This document shows positions 19,975-47,258 of a DNA stretch of 64,000 bases, in pieces. The position numbers were made by a program, and so were the translations under genes. The notes beneath the pieces are model-generated. The model was not told the origin of the DNA. It was given only the letters and a program-made list of their open reading frames with translations, and made no database searches. Each line of letters opens with the position of its first letter. Positions within the stretch are counted from its first letter, which is position 1. Source of the stretch: Streptomyces kanamyceticus (lineage in GTDB: Bacteria > Actinomycetota > Actinomycetes > Streptomycetales > Streptomycetaceae); contig NZ_CP023699.1 of NCBI RefSeq assembly GCF_008704495.1, forward strand, positions 6,200,001 to 6,264,000, read 5' to 3'.

Positions 19975-22900
19975 TCAGAGAAGAGACGGCACCTGCTCCG
20001 CCGAGACGGACCGCGCGGCCCGCTCCAACGCGCTGGCGAGCAAGGCCAGATCCGTCGGCCCGTTCCCCAGCTCCCGGACGGGACGCCGCGCGGGCGGGTC
20101 CCCCATCCGCTCCCACTCCAGCGGAACGACCGTGGGCCGCAGCGTCGATGTACGAGGAATCCGCCCGGTCACCCGCCCCGCCTGGAAGGCCGTGACCCGC
20201 CCGTCGGGCGAGCGCAGTTCGCCCCGGCCCGGCGCGGGCTCCTCAGGGCCCGAGGCCACCGCGTCGAGGACCACGCGGAGCGAGGCCCGCCGCCCCAGCT
20301 CGGTCTCCGGCATCCGCTCGCTGCGTCCCGTGGCCACCACGAGATGCACCCCGAGCCGCTCCCCGTCCCGCGCCACCGCTTCGAGGGCGCGGACGACGGA
20401 CCCGGCGGCGGGCCGCCCCGGCGAGCCGAGCGCGGGCGAGAGCAGCGCGTCGAAGTCGTCGACGAGCACCACGAGCCGGGGCAGCGGCGGTGGGGGATCG
20501 GCCTGCCTGCGCGCCGCCGCGGGCCGCAGCCGCAGCGTGGCACTGGTCGGCGGATCGAGATCGCCGTCGGACAGCTGCGCGGGCACGGGCGGCGCGCCGG
20601 TGGCCCCGGACGAGCCGACGGCACCGGATGCGGCGGACGGCTGGGACCGCTGCGAGACCATCCGCCCCGACACCTCCCGCTGCGTGTGCCACTCGGCGAA
20701 CCCGAGCCTGCCGAGCAGCTCGGCCCGCCGCTTGAGCTCGGCGGCGAGGGACTGCGCGAACTCCCGCATCCGGACGGGATCGTTGGCGACGAGGTGGGTG
20801 GTGACGTGCGGCAGGTCCGTACAGACACCGAGCCCCGTGGTGCGCCGCTCGGCACCGGCCCCGGTGCTGTCCCGGCCGTCGACCAGGACGATGCCGAGGC
20901 GGTCGGGCCGCTCGGCGGCGGCCAGCGAAGCGGCGACGGACCGCAGCAGTTCGCTGCGCCCGCTGCCCCCGGGGCCCTCGGCCAGCAGATGCGGTCCGTC
21001 GGCGACGAGATCGGCCGTCACGGGCCCGCGCGGCCCCGCGCCGAGCACCGCCACGGCGCGTCCGCCGAGCGCGTCGGGATCGTCGGCAGCCGCGGCCCAG
21101 CGTGCCATCAGCGAGGCGGGGGTGGCCCTGGCGAGCCCCAACTCGTCCAGCAGCCTGGCCGCTTGGGGCAGCGGCGCGGACACGCGCGCGTGCCCTTCGC
21201 CCGCCACGCCGTCCGTCCGCAGTGGGGCGAGCGCCCGCGCGAACCGCTCGGCCCAGGCCGCCGACACCGCGTCCACGGCGGCGACGGTGCCGTGCCCCGC
21301 GGGGCGGCCACCGGCAGTCCGCAGGAGCCGCAGGGCGGTCGCCACGTCACCGCTGAGCAGCGCGACGGCGCCGCACGCGCGGAAGGCGGGCGACACCGAG
21401 CAGGCCGCTTCGTAGGTGTCGGCGACCGGTGACGCGGGCGAGGCGGCCACGGTCTCGGCGAGGCACACCACGTGGATCCCGGCCCGCGCGCCCTCCCCGG
21501 CGAGCCGGACGGTGGCCTCGCGCAGCCCGGCGGAACCGGGGTCGCCGTCGACGACGACCACGGTGTAAGGACCTGGCGCCGCGGTGTCGGCACCGGCGCG
21601 CTGGTCGGCGATGCGGTCGTCCAGCCGCCGCAGCAGCTCGCCGGTGCGGGCCGCGGCCTGGTCGCGGTCGTAGGCGAGCAGGAGCCTGCAGTCCTGGCCG
21701 TGGGTGGGCCGCAGATGGGGGAGCCAGCCGAGCCAGGCCCACTCGGCGACGCGCTCCGCCGTGGGGCGCGCGCGGTCCGTGCTGATCAGCACGATCTCCA
21801 GGGAGTCGGGGGAGTGCAGCGCGGCGAGCTGCGCGACGACGGCCCTGGCAAGCCCCGTCAGCCGCGCACGGGGCCCGGCGAGACCGAGCGCGCCCGCCTC
21901 CCGCAGGCCGACCGTGACGGGCACGGCGGGCAGCAGGCCGCCCGCGCCGTCGTCGGTGGGCGCGGCCCGGTCGACCGTGCCGAGCCGGACCGCGAGTGCC
22001 TCGGGGTGGCTCGGGCCGCGCTCCCAGAGACGAGGTCCCGGGCCGAGCGCCGTGAGCAGCAGGGCGGCGGGATCGGGCCAGGACTCGGGGGTGCGCGCGG
22101 CGGCGGCCACGGCGAGCTCTTCGGGGGTGGGCGCGGGCGGCGCGGCGGCGTCGCCCTCCGGTGCGTACTCCTCGTAGACGTCGGCTTCCTGGCCGCTCTC
22201 CCGGCCGCCGGTCAGCCGACGGGCCCAGGCGGAGAGACCGCCGCGCTTGCGCAGACCGCGCGGCACGGTCGTCCCGCGCGCGGGGGTCCCGGTCCGGCTG
22301 GTGCGCTCGGCGTCGGGCGCGGTGCCCTGCTGCGGCACGACCGGGTCGGTGGGTCCCGCCGGGCCGTGGGGTGAGCCCACCGGGCCCTGCACCGAGCCGC
22401 CGGGGCCGCCGCGCTGCGCTGAGCCCGCCGGGCCACCTTGGGCCGAGCCGCCGGGGCCGCCGCGCTGCGCTGAGCCCGCCGGGCCATCCTGGGCCGAGCT
22501 CCTAGGTCCGCCGCCCGGCACCGAGCCCGCCGGGCCACTCTGGACCGAGCCCCTAGGACCGCCTCCTTGCACCGAGCCCGCCGGGCCGCCCCGGGCTGCG
22601 GGCGCGCCGTACGCGTCGTGGACCTCTCGCCCCGCCTGCGCCCTGGCGTGCGGCCCGTCCTGCGTCCCGCCCGGTGTCCTGCCCTGCGCTCCGCCCTGCG
22701 TGCCGTACACCCCTTGGATGCCGTACGGCCCAGGGGCGCCGCCTCCGTGCGCCCCGTCCCGTGCCACCTCGCCCGCCGCGCCCCAGCTCGCCGTGCCGTA
22801 CGCGTGGTGGGTGGCGCCCTCGGGCGCTCGCGGCGCCCCGGCGTCCGACGCTTCCGGGGGGAGTGCCCCCGCGGTGCGCACGCGCACGTGCCCCTCGCCG

Positions 22901-23559
22901 TCAGGGGCCGTCGGGAGCGTGCCGCCGGGGCCCGCGCCCGAGCCCAGGCCGAGGCGGCCGTCCGCGAGCCGGAGCGCGGATTCGCCGATCCGCAGCAGGG
23001 ATCCCGGCGCGAGGCGGACCGGGCGGCCCGTGACCTCCCTGCCGTCCATCGACGTGCCGTTGGTGGAGCCGAGGTCGGTGACCGTGACGCGGCCGTCGTC
23101 GGCGAGCGTGACTGCGCAGTGCAGCCGGGAGACGTCGGGGTCGTCCAGCGGGACGTCGGCCTCCGCGGAGCGGCCGACGCGGATCTGGCCGCCGTGCAGC
23201 AGGTGGACGCCGCCCGCGTCGGGGCCCGCGACCACGTGCAACTGGGCGGCCGCGCCCGCCGGTTCGGGACCGGGCTCGGCGGGGGCGCCGAGCGAGAGCA
23301 CCGCTCCGTCGGTCAGCGGGGGCTCGCCGATCGTGCAGCGCTGGGCGTCCAGACGCTCCGCGTCCGCGTACAGGACCAGGGGGGCGTCGGTGCCCGCGAC
23401 GGCCGTGGCGAGGCCCGATGCCACCGCCGCGAGCGCGGTCCCCGCGGGCGCGGTGACCAGGACGTCACAGGCGCCGTGCGGACCGCCCGGCGCCGTGGGG
23501 CGCCCTGGCGGCTCGGTCTGGCCGCTGCGCGGCCCGAGGACGGTCAGCCGGATCTGCAT
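19975..23559 (-). CDS. EssC/EccC-like FHA and FtsK/SpoIIIE ATPase-domain protein
   Basis: 1194 residues. An N-terminal ubiquitin-like or FHA-like stretch is followed by an FHA domain (residues about 105-195) with IRVGRSAEAD, SRLHC and DLGSTNGT. A Gly/Ser/Pro/Gln linker contains about four 17-residue repeats (321-388). Next comes an EssC-type module with WAWLGWLPHLRP but no Walker A, then an FtsK-type ATPase: GPGGSGRS (862-869) and LVVLVDDFDALL (about 1030). The Walker A lysine is arginine 868. Type VII secretion motor ATPases share this layout, but no other ESX core gene is visible. Divergent from pkaA. Confidence 0.83.
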   Translation of the reverse strand: MQIRLTVLGPRSGQTEPPGRPTAPGGPHGACDVLVTAPAGTALAAVASGLATAVAGTDAPLVLYADAERLDAQRCTIGEPPLTDGAVLSLGAPAEPGPEPAGAAAQLHVVAGPDAGGVHLLHGGQIRVGRSAEADVPLDDPDVSRLHCAVTLADDGRVTVTDLGSTNGTSMDGREVTGRPVRLAPGSLLRIGESALRLADGRLGLGSGAGPGGTLPTAPDGEGHVRVRTAGALPPEASDAGAPRAPEGATHHAYGTASWGAAGEVARDGAHGGGAPGPYGIQGVYGTQGGAQGRTPGGTQDGPHARAQAGREVHDAYGAPAARGGPAGSVQGGGPRGSVQSGPAGSVPGGGPRSSAQDGPAGSAQRGGPGGSAQGGPAGSAQRGGPGGSVQGPVGSPHGPAGPTDPVVPQQGTAPDAERTSRTGTPARGTTVPRGLRKRGGLSAWARRLTGGRESGQEADVYEEYAPEGDAAAPPAPTPEELAVAAAARTPESWPDPAALLLTALGPGPRLWERGPSHPEALAVRLGTVDRAAPTDDGAGGLLPAVPVTVGLREAGALGLAGPRARLTGLARAVVAQLAALHSPDSLEIVLISTDRARPTAERVAEWAWLGWLPHLRPTHGQDCRLLLAYDRDQAAARTGELLRRLDDRIADQRAGADTAAPGPYTVVVVDGDPGSAGLREATVRLAGEGARAGIHVVCLAETVAASPASPVADTYEAACSVSPAFRACGAVALLSGDVATALRLLRTAGGRPAGHGTVAAVDAVSAAWAERFARALAPLRTDGVAGEGHARVSAPLPQAARLLDELGLARATPASLMARWAAAADDPDALGGRAVAVLGAGPRGPVTADLVADGPHLLAEGPGGSGRSELLRSVAASLAAAERPDRLGIVLVDGRDSTGAGAERRTTGLGVCTDLPHVTTHLVANDPVRMREFAQSLAAELKRRAELLGRLGFAEWHTQREVSGRMVSQRSQPSAASGAVGSSGATGAPPVPAQLSDGDLDPPTSATLRLRPAAARRQADPPPPLPRLVVLVDDFDALLSPALGSPGRPAAGSVVRALEAVARDGERLGVHLVVATGRSERMPETELGRRASLRVVLDAVASGPEEPAPGRGELRSPDGRVTAFQAGRVTGRIPRTSTLRPTVVPLEWERMGDPPARRPVRELGNGPTDLALLASALERAARSVSAEQVPSLL
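22394..22597 (-). repeat. 51-bp tandem repeat coding for a 17-residue linker repeat
   Basis: Inside the FHA-FtsK gene, a 51-bp unit is repeated about four times. The two copies starting near 22394 and 22445 are nearly identical. The protein repeat has the pattern GPAGSAQRGGPGGSAQG with variation at a few positions. It forms a low-complexity linker between the FHA domain and the ATPase region and may vary in copy number between strains. Confidence 0.75.
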
Positions 23560-24022
23560 CGCCGTCAGCGGTCCCTTCTGCGCTGGGCACGGCATGGGGA
23601 CTCGCGCTGTGATTCCCCCCACCGCACACGGGCACGTCGGCCAGTACTGGAGGCATCCTCGCACCTGCCACTGACAACACGCCCGGCGGCCACCCGTAAG
23701 TGATCTTGAAGTGATCTTGATTGGTCGCCTCTGCTCGGAAAAGTTCCTGCTTGGACCGTTGTGGATATCCACCCGAGCTTCCGGCGGGAGGGCAATTCGG
23801 GACCACTCGGCAACCAATGGCCACGGCTGAGCGTCTTTCCTGCGGACAGCGATCCGGAGGAATCCGGAGGGATGCCGCAAGTGGGCGGCCGGGCGGAATC
23901 CGACCCGCCGGTGCCCCGTTCTGCGGCACTACAGTGGGTCGGAACATCTTCGGCCGAAGGCCGGAGCGCCAAGGACGACAGAGCATCACCACCACCCCAG
24001 GAACCAGCAGGGAGCGCATGAC
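23560..24022. other. 463-bp divergent intergenic region between the FHA-FtsK gene and pkaA
   Basis: It should hold promoters for both divergent genes. A perfect tandem 11-mer lies at 23698-23719. TACAGT at 23932-23937 is a possible -10 for pkaA, without a convincing -35. The short frames here lack ribosome sites and credible composition; I see no gene. Confidence 0.6.
23698..23719. promoter_or_regulatory. perfect tandem 11-mer, AAGTGATCTTG twice
   Basis: Two adjacent exact copies of AAGTGATCTTG. One-helical-turn spacing is what response regulators that bind as head-to-tail dimers use. It lies 139 bp upstream of the FHA-FtsK start and about 300 bp from pkaA. Confidence 0.4.
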
Positions 24023-40646: not shown

Positions 40647-41210
40647 ATGGCTGAGCGGAAGACCGCGGTCCAGGCGGCGGAGCGGGCCGGAGCCGACGTC
40701 GGCTCCGACGCCATAGACGAGCTGCGCGGTCAGTGGCGCCGCGAGCGCCCCGACCTGGAGCTCGCGCACCTGGACGCGATGGCGCTGGTCGGCCGCATCA
40801 AGCGGGCCGACCATCTGCTGAGCAAGGGCATGAAGACGGTCTTCGTCGAATACGGCCTGGAGTTCGCGGAGTTCGACGTCCTCGCCACGCTCCGCCGCGT
40901 CGGCGCCCCGCACGAGCTGACCGCGGGTGGCCTCATCAAGACCGCGATGGTGACCTCGGGCGCCATCACGAACCGCCTCGACAAACTGGAACGCAAGGGC
41001 CTGATCGAACGCCACCCCGACCCCACCGACCGCCGCGCCATCCGCGTCCGCCTCACGGAGGCGGGCCTGGACCTGGTCGACCGCGCGGTGGTCGCCCACG
41101 TGGAGAACGAGGAACGCATGCTGGCCGCTCTGACGCCGGGCGACCGCGCGGCACTCGACGGGGCGCTGCGGCGGCTGTTGGTGTCGTTGGGGGATACGCA
41201 TCTGGGGTGA
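40647..41210 (+). CDS. MarR-family transcriptional regulator
   Basis: 187 residues. The winged-helix core is FAEFDVLATLRRVGAPHELTAGGLIKTAMVTSGAITNRLDKLERKGLIERHPDPTDRRAIRVRLTEAG, given here as successive parts of one continuous domain (about 72-140). ATG 40647 follows GAGGTGCGGAG. Divergent from the EamA-oxidoreductase unit, with two near-identical palindromes in between, so it is very likely their repressor. The inducer is unknown. Confidence 0.93.
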   Translation: MAERKTAVQAAERAGADVGSDAIDELRGQWRRERPDLELAHLDAMALVGRIKRADHLLSKGMKTVFVEYGLEFAEFDVLATLRRVGAPHELTAGGLIKTAMVTSGAITNRLDKLERKGLIERHPDPTDRRAIRVRLTEAGLDLVDRAVVAHVENEERMLAALTPGDRAALDGALRRLLVSLGDTHLG

Positions 41211-41438: not shown

Positions 41439-42098
41439 GTGAACCGCCGACCTACGCTGCTCGCAGCGGCCGCCATGACTGCTGCGGCGGTCCTCTCGCT
41501 CTCGGCCTGCGGAGGGGGCGACGGAGGGTCCAAGGAGAACGAGAAGATCGCCGGCGCGGGCTCGGGAGACCAGAAGAAGGAGTCGCCGTCGTCCAAGCCG
41601 TCGGACGACGGGATCGACCGTCCTGAGGTCACCCTGCCCGAGGGCGACAACCTCGTCTTCTCTCCTGAGACGACGGGTGAGGCGAAGGCGGACGCGGTGC
41701 TGCGAGACAACGCCGAGTACCTGCGGGCCATTGATGAGGCGATCGCCAAGCAGGACCCCAAGTCCGAGGCCGTTGTCTTCTACAGCAAGGACTCGGCCCT
41801 GCTCGGAACGGTGGATTGGGTCAGCGGTTTCATCAAGGACGACACAACGCTGACGGGCACGGTGCGCTACTTCAATCGCAAGGTCGTCTTCAGCAAGGAC
41901 GGCTCGGCGGGGCTGACCTACTGCGCCGATGAGTCCAAGGGCTACACGCAGGACCGCAAGACGAAGAAGGTCAACGTCACGCCGGCCACCAAGGACTCGT
42001 ACGTCTTCTACAACGACCGGCTGCGTAAGAACGCCAAGGGCGTCTGGCAGGTCACCAAGAGCACCTCGGAGCGGGGCAGTAAGGTGTGCCAGCCGTGA
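41439..42098 (+). CDS. lipoprotein of unknown function, start of the accessory island
   Basis: 219 residues. Signal peptide with lipobox LSLSACGGG, an acidic/Lys linker, then an unrecognised domain with LRDNAEYLRAIDEAIAKQDP, YFNRKVVFSKDGSAG and VFYNDRLRKNAKGVWQV, the last resembling mature parts of NTF2-like secreted proteins. GTG 41439 has AGGAG seven bases upstream. Its stop overlaps the next start (GTGA), so the two secreted products are probably co-translated partners. Confidence 0.82.
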   Translation: MNRRPTLLAAAAMTAAAVLSLSACGGGDGGSKENEKIAGAGSGDQKKESPSSKPSDDGIDRPEVTLPEGDNLVFSPETTGEAKADAVLRDNAEYLRAIDEAIAKQDPKSEAVVFYSKDSALLGTVDWVSGFIKDDTTLTGTVRYFNRKVVFSKDGSAGLTYCADESKGYTQDRKTKKVNVTPATKDSYVFYNDRLRKNAKGVWQVTKSTSERGSKVCQP

Positions 42099-43132
42099 AC
42101 CGGAGGGGGATGACTCTGGTCGTGCTCGTTGCTGTGGCCCTCACCGCTCAGGCCTCGCCGTCGGCATGGGCTGACCGCACGAGCACCAGCGGTTCGAGCA
42201 AAGAGGCAAAGGGCGGCAAGGGCGATCGCACCATCACTGTGCAGACGAAGGTGCAGACCTCCGTCAACGGTGACTCGAGGTCCGCTCAGACCGGCAACCT
42301 CTCTTCGGCGGACAGCAATTGGAATCCCCCCGCGTGCTGGTACGAGCCCGCGTTCTCGCCCAAGGAGATCGAGAAGACGGTCAAGGCGTGGCGTGGCTTC
42401 GGCAAGGGCGTTCCGTTCATCGGCGGTGTCGGGGAGTTCGTGGGCAACTACCTCGACAGTCGCTACAAGGACGGCAAGCCGTACAAGGACTACAACCTCG
42501 ACAAGCAGGGCAAGGGGATGTTCTGGGCCGCGGCGCCCAATCCGAACCGCAAGGACGACCCCGAGGCCAGCGCCTGCGACAAGCAGCCCTTCTGGGTGGA
42601 TGACGGCGAGACGCCTGATGAGCCCCTCGCCGTAACCCCGAAGATCCTTGCCGAGTACGCCTACGACGAACTTCCTGTCCCCGGCACCCAGATCGAGATG
42701 GCGCCGGAGGGAACGACGAAGGTCAATCTCCCGACCTGGGTCTGGTTGAACAAGGCGAGGTTCAAGACGGTGTCGGTCACCGCGAGCATCCCTGGCTCGG
42801 GTCTCTCCGCGACCACGACCGCGAAGCCCGTGGCCCTCACGCTCACTCCGGGGACGGACGATGCCGAGACTTATCCCGCCTCGGGGGAGTGCCCCATCGA
42901 GAACGGGAAGATCGGCACGCCCCGAGCCAAGGGCACGCCCGTGGACACGGCGCCGCCGTGCGGCGTGAGGTACCTGCGGTCGTCAGGCGACGGCTCGTAC
43001 AACCTCCAGGCCACGGTTACCTGGGAGATCAGCTGGACCAGCACCACCGGCGAGGGCGGAGACCTTCCTGCCGGGCAGTTCGGAGCGGATCAGCAGGTCA
43101 AGGTCGAGGAGATCCAGTCCATCAACCGGTGA
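42095..43132 (+). CDS. secreted protein of unknown function
   Basis: 345 residues with a clear signal peptide (TLVVLVAVALTAQASPSAWA). The mature part has few recognisable features: a Thr/Ser-rich start, CWYEPAFSPKEIEKTVKAW, GMFWAAAPNPNRKDDPEAS, and a C-terminal beta-rich region with four Cys in total. GTG 42095 overlaps the stop of the lipoprotein gene in GTGA. An ATG at 42110 is too close to its GGAGG. The context (toxin island) suggests an envelope-associated role, unproven. Confidence 0.78.
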   Translation: MNRRGMTLVVLVAVALTAQASPSAWADRTSTSGSSKEAKGGKGDRTITVQTKVQTSVNGDSRSAQTGNLSSADSNWNPPACWYEPAFSPKEIEKTVKAWRGFGKGVPFIGGVGEFVGNYLDSRYKDGKPYKDYNLDKQGKGMFWAAAPNPNRKDDPEASACDKQPFWVDDGETPDEPLAVTPKILAEYAYDELPVPGTQIEMAPEGTTKVNLPTWVWLNKARFKTVSVTASIPGSGLSATTTAKPVALTLTPGTDDAETYPASGECPIENGKIGTPRAKGTPVDTAPPCGVRYLRSSGDGSYNLQATVTWEISWTSTTGEGGDLPAGQFGADQQVKVEEIQSINR

Positions 43133-43187: not shown

Positions 43188-43478
43188 TCATTTCGCGTAG
43201 GGGACGGAACGGCCGAGCGCCTGGTCGGTGATGCATATCCGCATGTTCGCTTCGTGCAGGTTCTTGGCGAGATCGTTGATCGCCTTCGTGCGGCCCTCGA
43301 CGATGACTTGAGTGAGGTAAGTCAAACGCGCCAGTGGCTCAGATATGCGCTCCGCTGCCACGTCGGCGACGTCGGGCTCTGCCGGTTGCTCGACGTGACG
43401 TGGGCGAGCCTTGCGGATTGAGGTGCGGAGATTGTTGACGGCCTCACTGTCATGTTTGAACTTCCCCTTGTCGGCCAT
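43188..43478 (-). CDS. small helical protein divergent from the toxin gene
   Basis: 96 residues, basic N-terminus (ADKGKFKHDSEAVNNLR) then a largely helical C-terminal half (AERISEPLARLTYLTQVIVEGRTKAINDLAKNLHEANMRI). ATG 43478 gives a protein of WXG100-like size, but no WxG is present. It is the only minus-strand gene in the island and shares a 65-bp promoter gap with the toxin. A secretion partner or regulator for the toxin is one possibility; I cannot assign it. Confidence 0.6.
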   Translation of the reverse strand: MADKGKFKHDSEAVNNLRTSIRKARPRHVEQPAEPDVADVAAERISEPLARLTYLTQVIVEGRTKAINDLAKNLHEANMRICITDQALGRSVPYAK

Positions 43479-43543: not shown

Positions 43544-44866
43544 GTGGGTGTGGGTGCAGTAGGCAAGGGGATTGGGGGCGCGGTAGTGGGCAGGCCGAAG
43601 GACTGGGGACTCATAGGTCTTCCCAAAGATCCGACGCCAGGTGATGCGGAGGTGCTCCTTGAGTGGCAGCGCTTCTTCCGCCGACGGCAACGCGATGCCC
43701 AGGACGCTCTGGACCGACTGTCGAAGGTCGTGGACAAGTTGCCTTCGGCCGACCTGGAGAGCACGTGGTTCACCGCGGTGTGGGGGCGGCTCAACTTCCT
43801 CAAAGATCAGCTTCTACCTGAAGTCGTTGCGCATCGGCTGGCCGCTGATGCGATCAAGGACTTCCGGCGCGCCCTGAAGGAATGCCAGACAGAGGCGGAC
43901 AAGGCTTTGGGGAACGCCCGCGCGGTGTTCAAGGCCCATGACGGCACAGGTGAGGAACTGGTACACAGCGCCAAGGGGAAGGCCGAACTGGCTGGTTCGG
44001 ACCACCATGCCGCAGCCACTCAGCTGGTGAGGGTGCTTGAGGATTCATGCCGGACCCTGGTGAACATAATCTTCGACAATATTCATCACACGAACGACAC
44101 CGCGTTCGAGCCTGAGCCGAGCTTCGCGACGAGGTATTTCCGCCAAGTCCTGACCGACGTCTACGCTTTGGCGGGCATCACCGCCAATACCTTGGACGGG
44201 GCCACTCAGGTAGGCATGGACGTCGAATCCATGATGATGCTTGGCGGTCCGGGTGCCGGTGGCATGAGCGCCGGCGGGGCATGGGCACTTGCGGGGAGCC
44301 GTAGCGCTTACGGAGGGCTTTCGGGGGCCTACGCGTATGGGGTCAACCCGTACAAGGATTACGGTGTCGATGTCGAGAAGCTCGATGCGCACTGGCTCAA
44401 GAAGAACTGGAAGAACTACGACCAGAAGTGGAATCGGAAGGGGCCGAAGCCGCCGAAGCTCCGAGAGATAGATCCCGCGGTGGAGGAGACACTGGGCGGG
44501 CACTCTATCGAAAGGCACGTGGGAAAGAGCAATCGAGCCCTGCGTGACCGCTTGAAGGATGAGGACATTCCCGCAGCTTCCACCTACGGAAGCTTCACTG
44601 AAGCCAAGAAGTACATGAACAAAGTCGCTCAGGGGAATAAGCGGAAAATTGAGGAGTGGTTGAAGAGCGGGAAAGGTGGAGACAGGGGGACCGAGACTTT
44701 TACTTCTCAGTTCCCTGGAGAGGAGATCGGGAGGCGGATTACCAAGGACGAAGCGAAACTTGGGAAGGAGCCTAGTTCTTCCGATCAGGCTACTATCGTG
44801 TTGAAGAGGGATGCCGATGCCCCGGGTGGATATATTGTGGTGACTTCCTTCCCTGGTTCGCCGTAA
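43544..44866 (+). CDS. polymorphic toxin: T7SS-type N-terminus, CdiA-type RNase A C-terminus
   Basis: 440 residues. The N-terminal RPKDWGLIGLPKDPTPGD followed by helices (EWQRFFRRRQRDAQDALDRL) matches the T7SS_signal type of exported actinobacterial toxins (recalled). A helical region (to about 235) and a Gly/Ala-rich spacer (MLGGPGAGGMSAGGAW) follow. From about residue 305 the C-terminus has GGHSIERHVGKS, STYGSFTEAKKYMNKV and YIVVTSFPGSP, the signature of bacterial CdiA-CT RNase A toxins (PF18431). It should cleave RNA, probably tRNA, in target cells. Start GTG 43544; GTG 43586 with GGGGG upstream is an alternative. AT-richer than neighbours. Confidence 0.82.
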   Translation: MGVGAVGKGIGGAVVGRPKDWGLIGLPKDPTPGDAEVLLEWQRFFRRRQRDAQDALDRLSKVVDKLPSADLESTWFTAVWGRLNFLKDQLLPEVVAHRLAADAIKDFRRALKECQTEADKALGNARAVFKAHDGTGEELVHSAKGKAELAGSDHHAAATQLVRVLEDSCRTLVNIIFDNIHHTNDTAFEPEPSFATRYFRQVLTDVYALAGITANTLDGATQVGMDVESMMMLGGPGAGGMSAGGAWALAGSRSAYGGLSGAYAYGVNPYKDYGVDVEKLDAHWLKKNWKNYDQKWNRKGPKPPKLREIDPAVEETLGGHSIERHVGKSNRALRDRLKDEDIPAASTYGSFTEAKKYMNKVAQGNKRKIEEWLKSGKGGDRGTETFTSQFPGEEIGRRITKDEAKLGKEPSSSDQATIVLKRDADAPGGYIVVTSFPGSP

Positions 44867-44933
44867 GTGTTTTTGATGAAATGGATCGCATCGCATGTCC
44901 GAAAATCAAGAGGGCCCTGTGCGCGGAGGTGAT

Positions 44934-45641
44934 ATGGGTATCGTCTTTCGTGAGCTCCCAGAGCTTCTGCGTGCTTATGTCGCGACACAGGTGAAGAATT
45001 ATTCTCGTGATGGCTCGCTGATGCCGCCGGGGGATCTGGACACGGTCGATGTGCCGTCCCTGGCGATGCGGACGTACTTGCGGGTGGCGGCTCTCCACCC
45101 TGGGCGAGCCGGTCGGGCCGTATCTGAGATTGAGGCCCTGCTGGAACTGGGGCCGGTGGATGAGGTGTTCGAAGCACTCGATGACGCTGGTGTGACCCCA
45201 GAGTCGCTCAGGTCCTCGGACGGCAAGGATCCTGACGAGTTCTTCGAGCTGATGTTGCCGCACTTGCGGAAGTTCATCGCGGCCGGTGAACAGGTCCAGG
45301 AAGTGATCCCGGAGTCCAGTTGGGAGTGGCGGGAGCGGTATGAGGCCATCGGCAGGCTGATGAGTGGAGGATTCCATCAGGACTGCCTCCACTTCTTCCC
45401 CGACCGCGATGCTGTCATCGACGGATATTTCGTGGGTGAGCAACCTGAATTTGTTCGGGACATGCTGAAGGACATCGATGCCCTGCGGTCCTTGGTTCCT
45501 GCCGACGATGATCTGGAATGGGCTCTCCGTGGCATGGGATGCGGCCTTTTGGCGCCGCGAGGGATGACTTACTGGCAATGGATGGATCACATCGAAGGTC
45601 ACCTTCGAAGCAAGTTGCGGGAGTGGTCACGCGGACAGTGA
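44934..45641 (+). CDS. probable immunity protein for the RNase A toxin (CdiI-like)
   Basis: 235 residues, directly downstream of the toxin. The C-terminal part, with FHQDCLHFFPDRDAVIDGY, then FVRDMLKDIDALRSLV and WQWMDHIEGHLRSKL, resembles CDI immunity proteins (CdiI_2 type). The N-terminal half (to about 125), acidic and helical, is not needed for that match and may be an extra domain. ATG 44934 is chosen because GGAGG lies just before it; an in-frame ATG at 44895 is weaker. Acidic overall, as expected for binding a basic RNase. Codon use is less GC-biased than the flanking core genes. Confidence 0.72.
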   Translation: MGIVFRELPELLRAYVATQVKNYSRDGSLMPPGDLDTVDVPSLAMRTYLRVAALHPGRAGRAVSEIEALLELGPVDEVFEALDDAGVTPESLRSSDGKDPDEFFELMLPHLRKFIAAGEQVQEVIPESSWEWRERYEAIGRLMSGGFHQDCLHFFPDRDAVIDGYFVGEQPEFVRDMLKDIDALRSLVPADDDLEWALRGMGCGLLAPRGMTYWQWMDHIEGHLRSKLREWSRGQ

Positions 45642-45714: not shown

Positions 45715-45732
45715 CGATGGGTAGGAGGAGCG

Positions 45733-45816
45733 ATGGGCCGACGCGTTCCTCACCGCCCCGCCCGGCCCCAAGTGAGAGCAACGTTCCCCGGCGGTCACCG
45801 CCCGGCACGGGGATGA
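45733..45816 (+). CDS. possible short leader peptide upstream of narK
   Basis: An ATG preceded by AGGAGGAGC, the best ribosome site in the region, opens a 27-codon frame ending in TGA at 45814, 65 bp before narK. The peptide is rich in Arg and Pro (GRRVPHRPARPQVRATF) and could be a translated leader affecting narK expression. It may equally be chance. No homology is claimed. Confidence 0.25.
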   Translation: MGRRVPHRPARPQVRATFPGGHRPARG

Positions 45817-45881
45817 AATCCGGTCTCCCTACCTTCGGCCACATCAGCCGCTGCCCGTGGACGAACCCGTGGAGGCATGTG

Positions 45882-47258
45882 ATGTGGATCGAGCGGTGGG
45901 ACCCCGAGGACGAGCGGTTCTGGAAGGAGGAGGGTGGGGAGCGGGTCGCTCGGCGGAATTTGGCGTTTTCCGTGGTGTCCGAGCACATCGGGTTCTCCGT
46001 GTGGAGCCTGTGGTCCGTGATGGTGCTGTTCATGGGGCCCGAGTACGGGATCGACGCGGCCGGGAAGTTCTTCCTGGTGTCGATGGCGACGCTCGTGGGG
46101 GCCGTTGTCCGGGTGCCCTACACCTTTGCCGTCGCCCGGTTCGGTGGGCGGAACTGGACCGTCATCGCCGCGTCCCTCCTGCTGCTCCCGACCGTCGCCG
46201 CCTTCGTCGTCATGGAGCCGGGGACCTCGTACGCCACCTTCATGGTGTGTGCCCTGCTCACCGGGGTGGGCGGCGGGAACTTCGCGTCCAGCATGACCAA
46301 CATCAACGCGTTCTTCCCGCTGCGGGAGAAGGGGTGGGCGCTCGGCATCAACGCGGGGGGCGGGAACATCGGCGTGCCCGTCGTGCAGCTCGTCGGGCTC
46401 GCCGCCATCGGGGCCGGTGGCGGGCCCCGGCTCGTGCTGGGGATCTACATCCCGCTCATCGTCGGCTCCGTCGTCTGCGCCTTCCGGTACATGGACAGCA
46501 TTTCGTCCGTGCGGAACGACACGGGGGCAGCCAAGGCGGCCGTGCGAGAGGCGCATACGTGGATCATGGCTCTGCTCTACGTAGGGACCTTCGGATCCTT
46601 CATCGGGTACAGCTTCGCGTTCGGGCTCGTGCTCCAGACGCAGTTCGGGCGCACGCCCCTCGAAGCCGCGCAGATCACCTTCATCGGGCCGCTGCTCGGC
46701 TCGCTGATCAGGCCCGTGGGCGGGCGGCTCGCCGACCGGTTCGGCGGGGCGCGCATCACGCTGGGGAACTTCGTGGGAATGGGGGCCGCCACGGGTGTGG
46801 TGGTCGTCGCTTCCGTACGGGAGTCGCTGCCGCTGTTCGTCGGCGCGTTCATCGCGCTGTTCGTCCTCACCGGGCTCGGCAACGGCTCGACGTACAAGAT
46901 GATCCCCGGGATCTTCCAGGCCAAGGCCGAGGGGAAGGGGTTGGAAGGGGAAGCCGCCGCAGTTTACGGGCGGCGGCTTTCCGGGGCCGCCATGGGGCTC
47001 ATCGGGGCCGTCGGCGCGCTCGGCGGGCTCGGCATCAACCTCGCGCTGCGGCAGTCCTTCCAGACGGTGGGGTCGGGGACCGGCGCCTTCGTCTCCTTCC
47101 TCGGGTTCTATGTCGCGTGCTCCGTCGTGACGTGGGCCGTATATCTTCGGCGGCGTACGAGGCGGGGGTCGGGGCAGGGTCCTGGCCCGGGCGAGGCCCG
47201 GGGTGCGGGCGAGCCGGGCGCCGCGGAGAAGGCCCAGGTCAGGTACGCCGAGGTGTGA
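45882..47258 (+). CDS. narK: nitrate/nitrite MFS transporter NarK
   Basis: 458 residues, twelve predicted spans. It starts WIERWDPEDERFWKEEGGERVARRNLAFSV and has the nitrate-signature glycine-rich stretches GVGGGNFASSMTNINAFFP and INAGGGNIGVP. The second half has GRLADRFGGARITL. These are characteristic of NarK/NasA nitrate-nitrite porters. ATG 45882 has GGAGG six bases upstream; the longer frame is intergenic. Next to nnaR, the same pair as in S. coelicolor (recalled), consistent with nitrate assimilation. Confidence 0.93.
   Translation: MWIERWDPEDERFWKEEGGERVARRNLAFSVVSEHIGFSVWSLWSVMVLFMGPEYGIDAAGKFFLVSMATLVGAVVRVPYTFAVARFGGRNWTVIAASLLLLPTVAAFVVMEPGTSYATFMVCALLTGVGGGNFASSMTNINAFFPLREKGWALGINAGGGNIGVPVVQLVGLAAIGAGGGPRLVLGIYIPLIVGSVVCAFRYMDSISSVRNDTGAAKAAVREAHTWIMALLYVGTFGSFIGYSFAFGLVLQTQFGRTPLEAAQITFIGPLLGSLIRPVGGRLADRFGGARITLGNFVGMGAATGVVVVASVRESLPLFVGAFIALFVLTGLGNGSTYKMIPGIFQAKAEGKGLEGEAAAVYGRRLSGAAMGLIGAVGALGGLGINLALRQSFQTVGSGTGAFVSFLGFYVACSVVTWAVYLRRRTRRGSGQGPGPGEARGAGEPGAAEKAQVRYAEV

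Follow-up and report, generated by a model that had tools for sequence, protein, structure and literature searches.

How does a toxin domain best known from contact-dependent inhibition (CDI) in Gram-negative bacteria come to be encoded in a Streptomyces chromosome, and by which route would it leave its producer? The question is raised by a locus of Streptomyces kanamyceticus (contig NZ_CP023699.1) within a window of 64,000 nucleotides (positions 6,200,001-6,264,000 of the 10.13-Mb genome; coordinates below are those of the window). The locus centres on a gene for a 440-aa RNase A-type polymorphic toxin (43544-44866, + strand; the start could be 43586) and a predicted immunity gene downstream (44934-45641, +; listed as an open reading frame (ORF) at 44895-45641, +), both present where the initial annotation had placed them. 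We consider it probable that the toxin is exported by type VII secretion and cuts RNA in neighbouring bacteria, and that the CdiI_2-type protein encoded next to it protects the producer. This reading is based on homologous domains, retention of three active-site residues out of four, conserved toxin-immunity order, recurrence of a gene pair for a predicted lipoprotein (LIPO) and a predicted secreted protein (SEC) beside related N-termini, and the presence of genes for EccC and EccD in the genome. The kind of toxin is already known; the unexplained LIPO-SEC pair is the new part of the cassette.

RNase A-type toxin domain and its predicted immunity protein

The initial assignment of the toxin C-terminus to the RNase A family is borne out. 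PF18431 matches residues 319-437 (E 1.8e-23; 84 bits, cut-off 27; profile positions 1-113 of 113), and a CdiA-type N-terminus is absent, PF18431 being the sole Pfam family that the 440-aa protein matches at E <= 1, the level to which proteins of the locus were scanned (no CdiB search was made). The reference structure 5e3e, of CdiA-CT/CdiI from Yersinia kristensenii, was reportedly determined by Batot in 2017. The toxin C-terminus matches chain 5e3e_B by sequence (E 2.8e-9), and its predicted fold agrees with the RNase A fold of 5e3e_D (E 9.6e-8, TM 0.92 of target). The catalytic domain, placed by Pfam, alignment and predicted fold at residues 318-437 (44495-44854, +), contains His320, His325, Arg336, Thr434 and Phe436. 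When these are set against the active-site residues given for the bacterial branch in passages of PMC9086364, His325, Arg336 and Thr434 are the equivalents of His175, Arg186 and Thr276 (alignment read by hand), conserved in 33, 31 and 33 of 33 aligned rows, respectively. The equivalent of Tyr278 is Phe436, in a column with F in 13 rows, Y in 11, M in six, A and T in one each and one gap; this position was not taken as family-defining because of that variability. By alignment, three of the four active-site residues are thus kept, and the domain would cut RNA in neighbouring bacteria despite the substitution.

The next gene had been described as having a CdiI-like C-terminal half and a strong ribosome site, and both features are present. 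PF18593 (CdiI_2) matches residues 148-235 of the 248-aa reading (45336-45599, +; E 1.1e-15; 58.6 bits, cut-off 26.7), and 5e3e_A is matched at only E 0.0055. The most likely start is ATG 44934, judged from the GGAGG (44925-44929, +) four bases before it and a database copy of 235 aa. Matches to the immunity protein occur in 100 of 392 genomes of the genus, its own included. The stronger ones span about residues 35-220, which indicates that much of the N-terminal part is common to other such proteins; many weaker ones cover the C-terminal part only. Among the 22 PF18431 hits of the genus with E <= 1e-20 (the window's included), 20 lie no more than 1.5 kb from an immunity-like hit by hand count, the exceptions being in genomes G174 and G129. 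Homology and predicted fold together make the identities of toxin and immunity protein well supported, and the latter would likely neutralise the toxin in the producer by covering its active site.

A further, well-conserved RNase A-like ORF lies between toxin and immunity gene at ten other loci of the genus (L090, L096, L103, L105, L106, L108, L109, L111, L112 and L113), chosen among those with a second, partial PF18431 match; it was found in 10/10 when translated. It has 99-104 aa in five of them and was called as a longer ORF in the other five; the catalytic His/Arg stretch seems to be missing, and the protein may be a decoy, a regulator or an extra immunity protein.

Toxin N-terminus and proposed type VII export

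The initial annotation had also called the N-terminus type VII-like, from its DW..GL..DPTPGD pattern. The pattern is present, followed by predicted helices (residues 35-64 and 74-132 in the model), and residues 17-136 (43592-43951, +) form a domain, here T7N, homologous to other N-termini of the genus (leave-out profile E 4e-5; 0/2000 shuffles) and matched in 51 of 199 genomes, its own included. The proposed check against T7SS_signal failed: residues 1-305 match no family at E <= 10, PF21725 included. Several proteins with homologous N-termini do match PF21725. No Pfam match to WXG100 or LXG was obtained for the toxin, and neither a WXG motif nor a YxxxD/E signal was seen by eye in residues 1-136. 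The genome encodes a Rhs-type protein with a homologous T7N domain that matches T7SS_signal and, weakly, WXG100, as well as EccC- and EccD-type proteins (TIGR03924, TIGR03925 and TIGR03920 above cut-off), with eccC at 8631036 of the chromosome. EccB (PF05108) had no match in the genome, but control genomes gave none either. Type VII export is therefore proposed as likely on moderately strong N-terminal homology: the toxin would leave the producer via T7N and be delivered into a target cell.

The toxin could start at GTG 43544, at GTG 43586, the start used by relative P0003, or at 43652, that of the 404-aa database copy P0001. Either GTG is favoured because P0003 and P0004 keep the DW..DPTPGD stretch, which P0002 does not include. 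These four, the own copy among them, are the toxin relatives found in the protein database (among 7993 candidates sharing most words); none was found in the genome collection, by a search sensitive to close relatives only. The other three are 93, 79 and 75% identical to the toxin over the N-terminal 317 residues and 69, 69 and 66% over the toxin domain. A homologous N-terminus (37% identity over residues 2-127) is also encoded at L052:6391-7707 (-), where the neighbouring gene is of the Imm52 and not the CdiI_2 type. The C-terminal part of that toxin has no Pfam family and by eye looks out of frame or strongly diverged.

Elsewhere in the window, 20686-21933 (-), inside an ORF at 19975-23880 for a large protein that looks FHA/FtsK-like by eye, gives a partial EccC match (138 bits).

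The LIPO-SEC pair

Three genes of the locus lie beyond the pair originally noted: LIPO, SEC and a small divergent gene. LIPO (41439-42098, +; 219 aa; lipobox LSAC by eye; start set by comparison with locus L169 of S. longisporoflavus) is the first gene of a recurring pair, and its 3′ end shares 13 bases with the 5′ end of SEC (42086-43132, +; 348 aa), the product of which has a signal-peptide-like N-terminus by eye. No Pfam family was matched by either protein at E <= 1; in NCBIfam, SEC has nothing at that level and LIPO only weak hits far below cut-off. SEC matches occur in 74 of 199 genomes, its own included, and the own genome holds six SEC places and eight LIPO places, the latter with the window's own. 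At 40 SEC loci, hand-picked from the SEC match rows (three from the own genome, several genomes giving more than one), a LIPO gene was present in 40/40, a T7N gene in 27/40 and an ESX-like gene in 24/40.

Proximity was counted in 15 nearly complete genomes selected for having both SEC and T7N hits, so that the share of genomes with both is uninformative. With 75 of 79 SEC rows used (four short fragments left out) and 110 T7N places, 42/75 SEC places lie within 5 kb of T7N, compared with a mean of 0.63 (maximum 4 in 1000 trials) for random placement and 0.62 (maximum 7) for rotation. The pair is thus found near T7N domains about 65 times more often than under random placement, with mild circularity, since each of the ten rows of the T7N alignment derives from a locus where LIPO or SEC genes, or fragments of them, are also present. 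Exclusion of the own genome leaves 37/69. In the reverse direction, 47 of the 110 T7N places have SEC within 5 kb and 63 do not; the pairing is therefore strong, yet not a general rule.

A cluster at 4.316-4.353 Mb of the own genome (L049, L050 and L155), possibly a dedicated secretion locus, combines LIPO-SEC pairs with T7N and ESX-like genes beside an EssC/EccC-like ATPase of 1621 aa; an EssC-like gene lies at 4348841.

LIPO-SEC would have its place in the cell envelope, where it may help to display the toxin or to let it pass. More tentatively, and with considerable doubt, it may be envelope equipment specific to the type VII toxins of Streptomyces, a module for display at the surface or for passage that accepts interchangeable toxin-immunity pairs; in this locus the pair would bring an RNase A warhead, together with a diverged export partner of its own. 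We know of no settled mechanism by which type VII toxins of Gram-positive bacteria reach and cross the envelope of a neighbour, and LIPO-SEC, without a Pfam family, offers a concrete starting point for that question.

The same proximity could be read differently: a true RNase A toxin-immunity pair might use another exit, with LIPO-SEC, seemingly bearing Sec-type signals, as the delivery apparatus and the N-terminal helices as mere scaffold. Adjacency to T7N genes far above chance fits this, as do the missed PF21725 and the EccB result, qualified as it is by the controls. However, T7N is common to the Rhs protein matching T7SS_signal and, weakly, WXG100, ESX-like genes accompany more than half of the sampled LIPO-SEC loci, EccC and EccD are present, LIPO-SEC also occurs without a toxin (L168, below), and the majority of T7N places have no SEC nearby. 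We regard this route as unlikely, although it is the alternative that fares best, and retain type VII export as the preferred explanation.

The divergent small gene

Between SEC and the toxin gene lies a divergent gene (43188-43478, -) for a helix-rich protein of 96 aa, modelled with medium confidence as one short and one long helix (pLDDT 69.6). Homologues occur in 3/199 genomes of the genus. Three of its four database relatives are on contigs of the same lengths as those of three toxin relatives, the fourth being on a contig of 945 bases. A homologue adjoins the toxin in L052, and in L053 one accompanies LIPO and SEC, the 14 kb covered there containing no T7N gene. Homology to ESX proteins was tested and not demonstrated, and WXG motif and YxxxD/E signal were not seen by eye. 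The protein is a possible export partner of the toxin and would serve it in that role.

Insertion site

The AT-richer insertion between core genes described initially is evident: G+C is 0.53-0.62 in windows at 43.25-45.75 kb, spanning the toxin-immunity pair, compared with 0.65-0.78 in most, not all, windows outside, with dips to 0.62-0.65 in places at 41.5-43.5 kb. The left flank is a MarR-family regulator (40647-41210, +; Pfam) and the right flank an MFS transporter (45717-47258, +; Pfam) followed by a HemD-like gene. Among the best 80 loci kept of 581 MFS relatives (79/80 from Streptomyces, some ending at contig ends), the MFS-HemD pair was present at 80/80, LIPO and SEC within reach upstream at 8/80 and the MarR-family gene at one, L169. 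There, EamA, MarR, LIPO, SEC, MFS and HemD are all present, the small gene, toxin and immunity gene were not detected (tblastn, E 1e-8), and the toxin slot is occupied by a 572-aa ATPase (L169:7200-8918) matching PDC-S27, a candidate defence family in PADLOC (E 6.9e-17). In L168, MFS directly follows SEC, so that LIPO-SEC stands without toxin. L230 (S. composti) encodes, upstream of the same MFS gene, another protein whose end is RNase A-like by eye and whose N-terminus differs (L230:4199-7804; NF041883 far below cut-off at E 3.1e-5); an immunity-like match of 24% identity lies close by. Because L169, L168 and L230 differ in content at the same site, the slot seems to be variable, and toxin, immunity gene and small gene to form a movable unit within it.

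The ATPase in the L169 slot, together with the lack of a Sec signal in the toxin by eye, could suggest an internal function, with the pair serving the producer as a toxin-antitoxin or phage-defence module and never leaving the cell. That is less probable still: the N-terminal domain of the toxin is common to long toxin-like proteins, the window's five genes have no PADLOC match at E <= 0.01, and RNase A domains sit on several different N-termini, as in polymorphic toxins. Least probable, and only slightly credible, is a decayed or inactive remnant. Phe436, low G+C and the few toxin relatives would speak for it; against it, the frames are open and without stops, the protein is conserved in three relatives and Phe, in place of the catalytic Tyr, is common among family members.

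Distribution and related systems

RNase A domains (PF18431) occur in 70 of 199 genomes of the genus, and the toxin is for that reason of a known kind. At 29 RNase A loci of the genus (28 with an ORF shown), N-termini include WXG- or ESX-like ones by eye, and passages of PMC9086364 already count in the bacterial RNase A branch Gram-positive members for which immunity proteins and secretion systems are predicted. The initial reading stood in its RNase A domain, CdiI-like partner, type VII-like N-terminus and insertion, and went too far in calling such a toxin little described. In the library searched, no paper was found under the names PF18431 or T7SS_signal, and no title or abstract start among those listed describes the cassette (the LIPO and SEC proteins, being nameless, were not searched for), nor is the cassette described in passages of PMC9086364, PMC12691689, PMC9970974, PMC3482391 and PMC8401907.

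The Y. kristensenii CdiA-CT/CdiI pair, also described in passages of PMC9086364, shares with this locus an RNase A-fold toxin domain, the His/Arg/Thr core and a CdiI immunity protein. The toxin here differs in having T7N instead of a CdiA-type N-terminus and Phe for Tyr278, and its immunity protein is longer at the N-terminus by about 135 residues. The toxin suggests that Streptomyces, too, has this RNase A warhead, familiar chiefly from the CDI of Gram-negative bacteria, and bears it on a carrier of type VII-like kind. The own-genome Rhs-type and ~420-aa PF21725 proteins (for example L049:60-4643 and L050:5459-6676) have a homologous N-terminal domain, with LIPO-SEC in the same stretches; unlike them, the toxin is too diverged for the Pfam model and carries RNase A, and its small neighbour, encoded on the opposite strand, shows no recognisable likeness to ESX proteins. 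Other RNase A proteins of the genus share the PF18431 domain and, among stronger hits, usually a related immunity gene, but differ in their N-termini (WXG-like, ESX-like, PrsW-like or HINT-containing, by eye). Type VII LXG effectors such as AaEAS of Amycolatopsis, as presented in passages of PMC12691689, similarly combine an N-terminal export domain, a C-terminal toxin, a neighbouring targeting-factor gene and a likely immunity gene, whereas the toxin here has no LXG-family match or WXG motif, its export is predicted only, and those passages make no mention of a LIPO-SEC pair.

The own genome encodes another RNase A domain, a partial one covering profile positions 32-113, in a 188-aa frame at about 1.9988 Mb (L054), near short ORFs that by eye resemble Rhs remnants.
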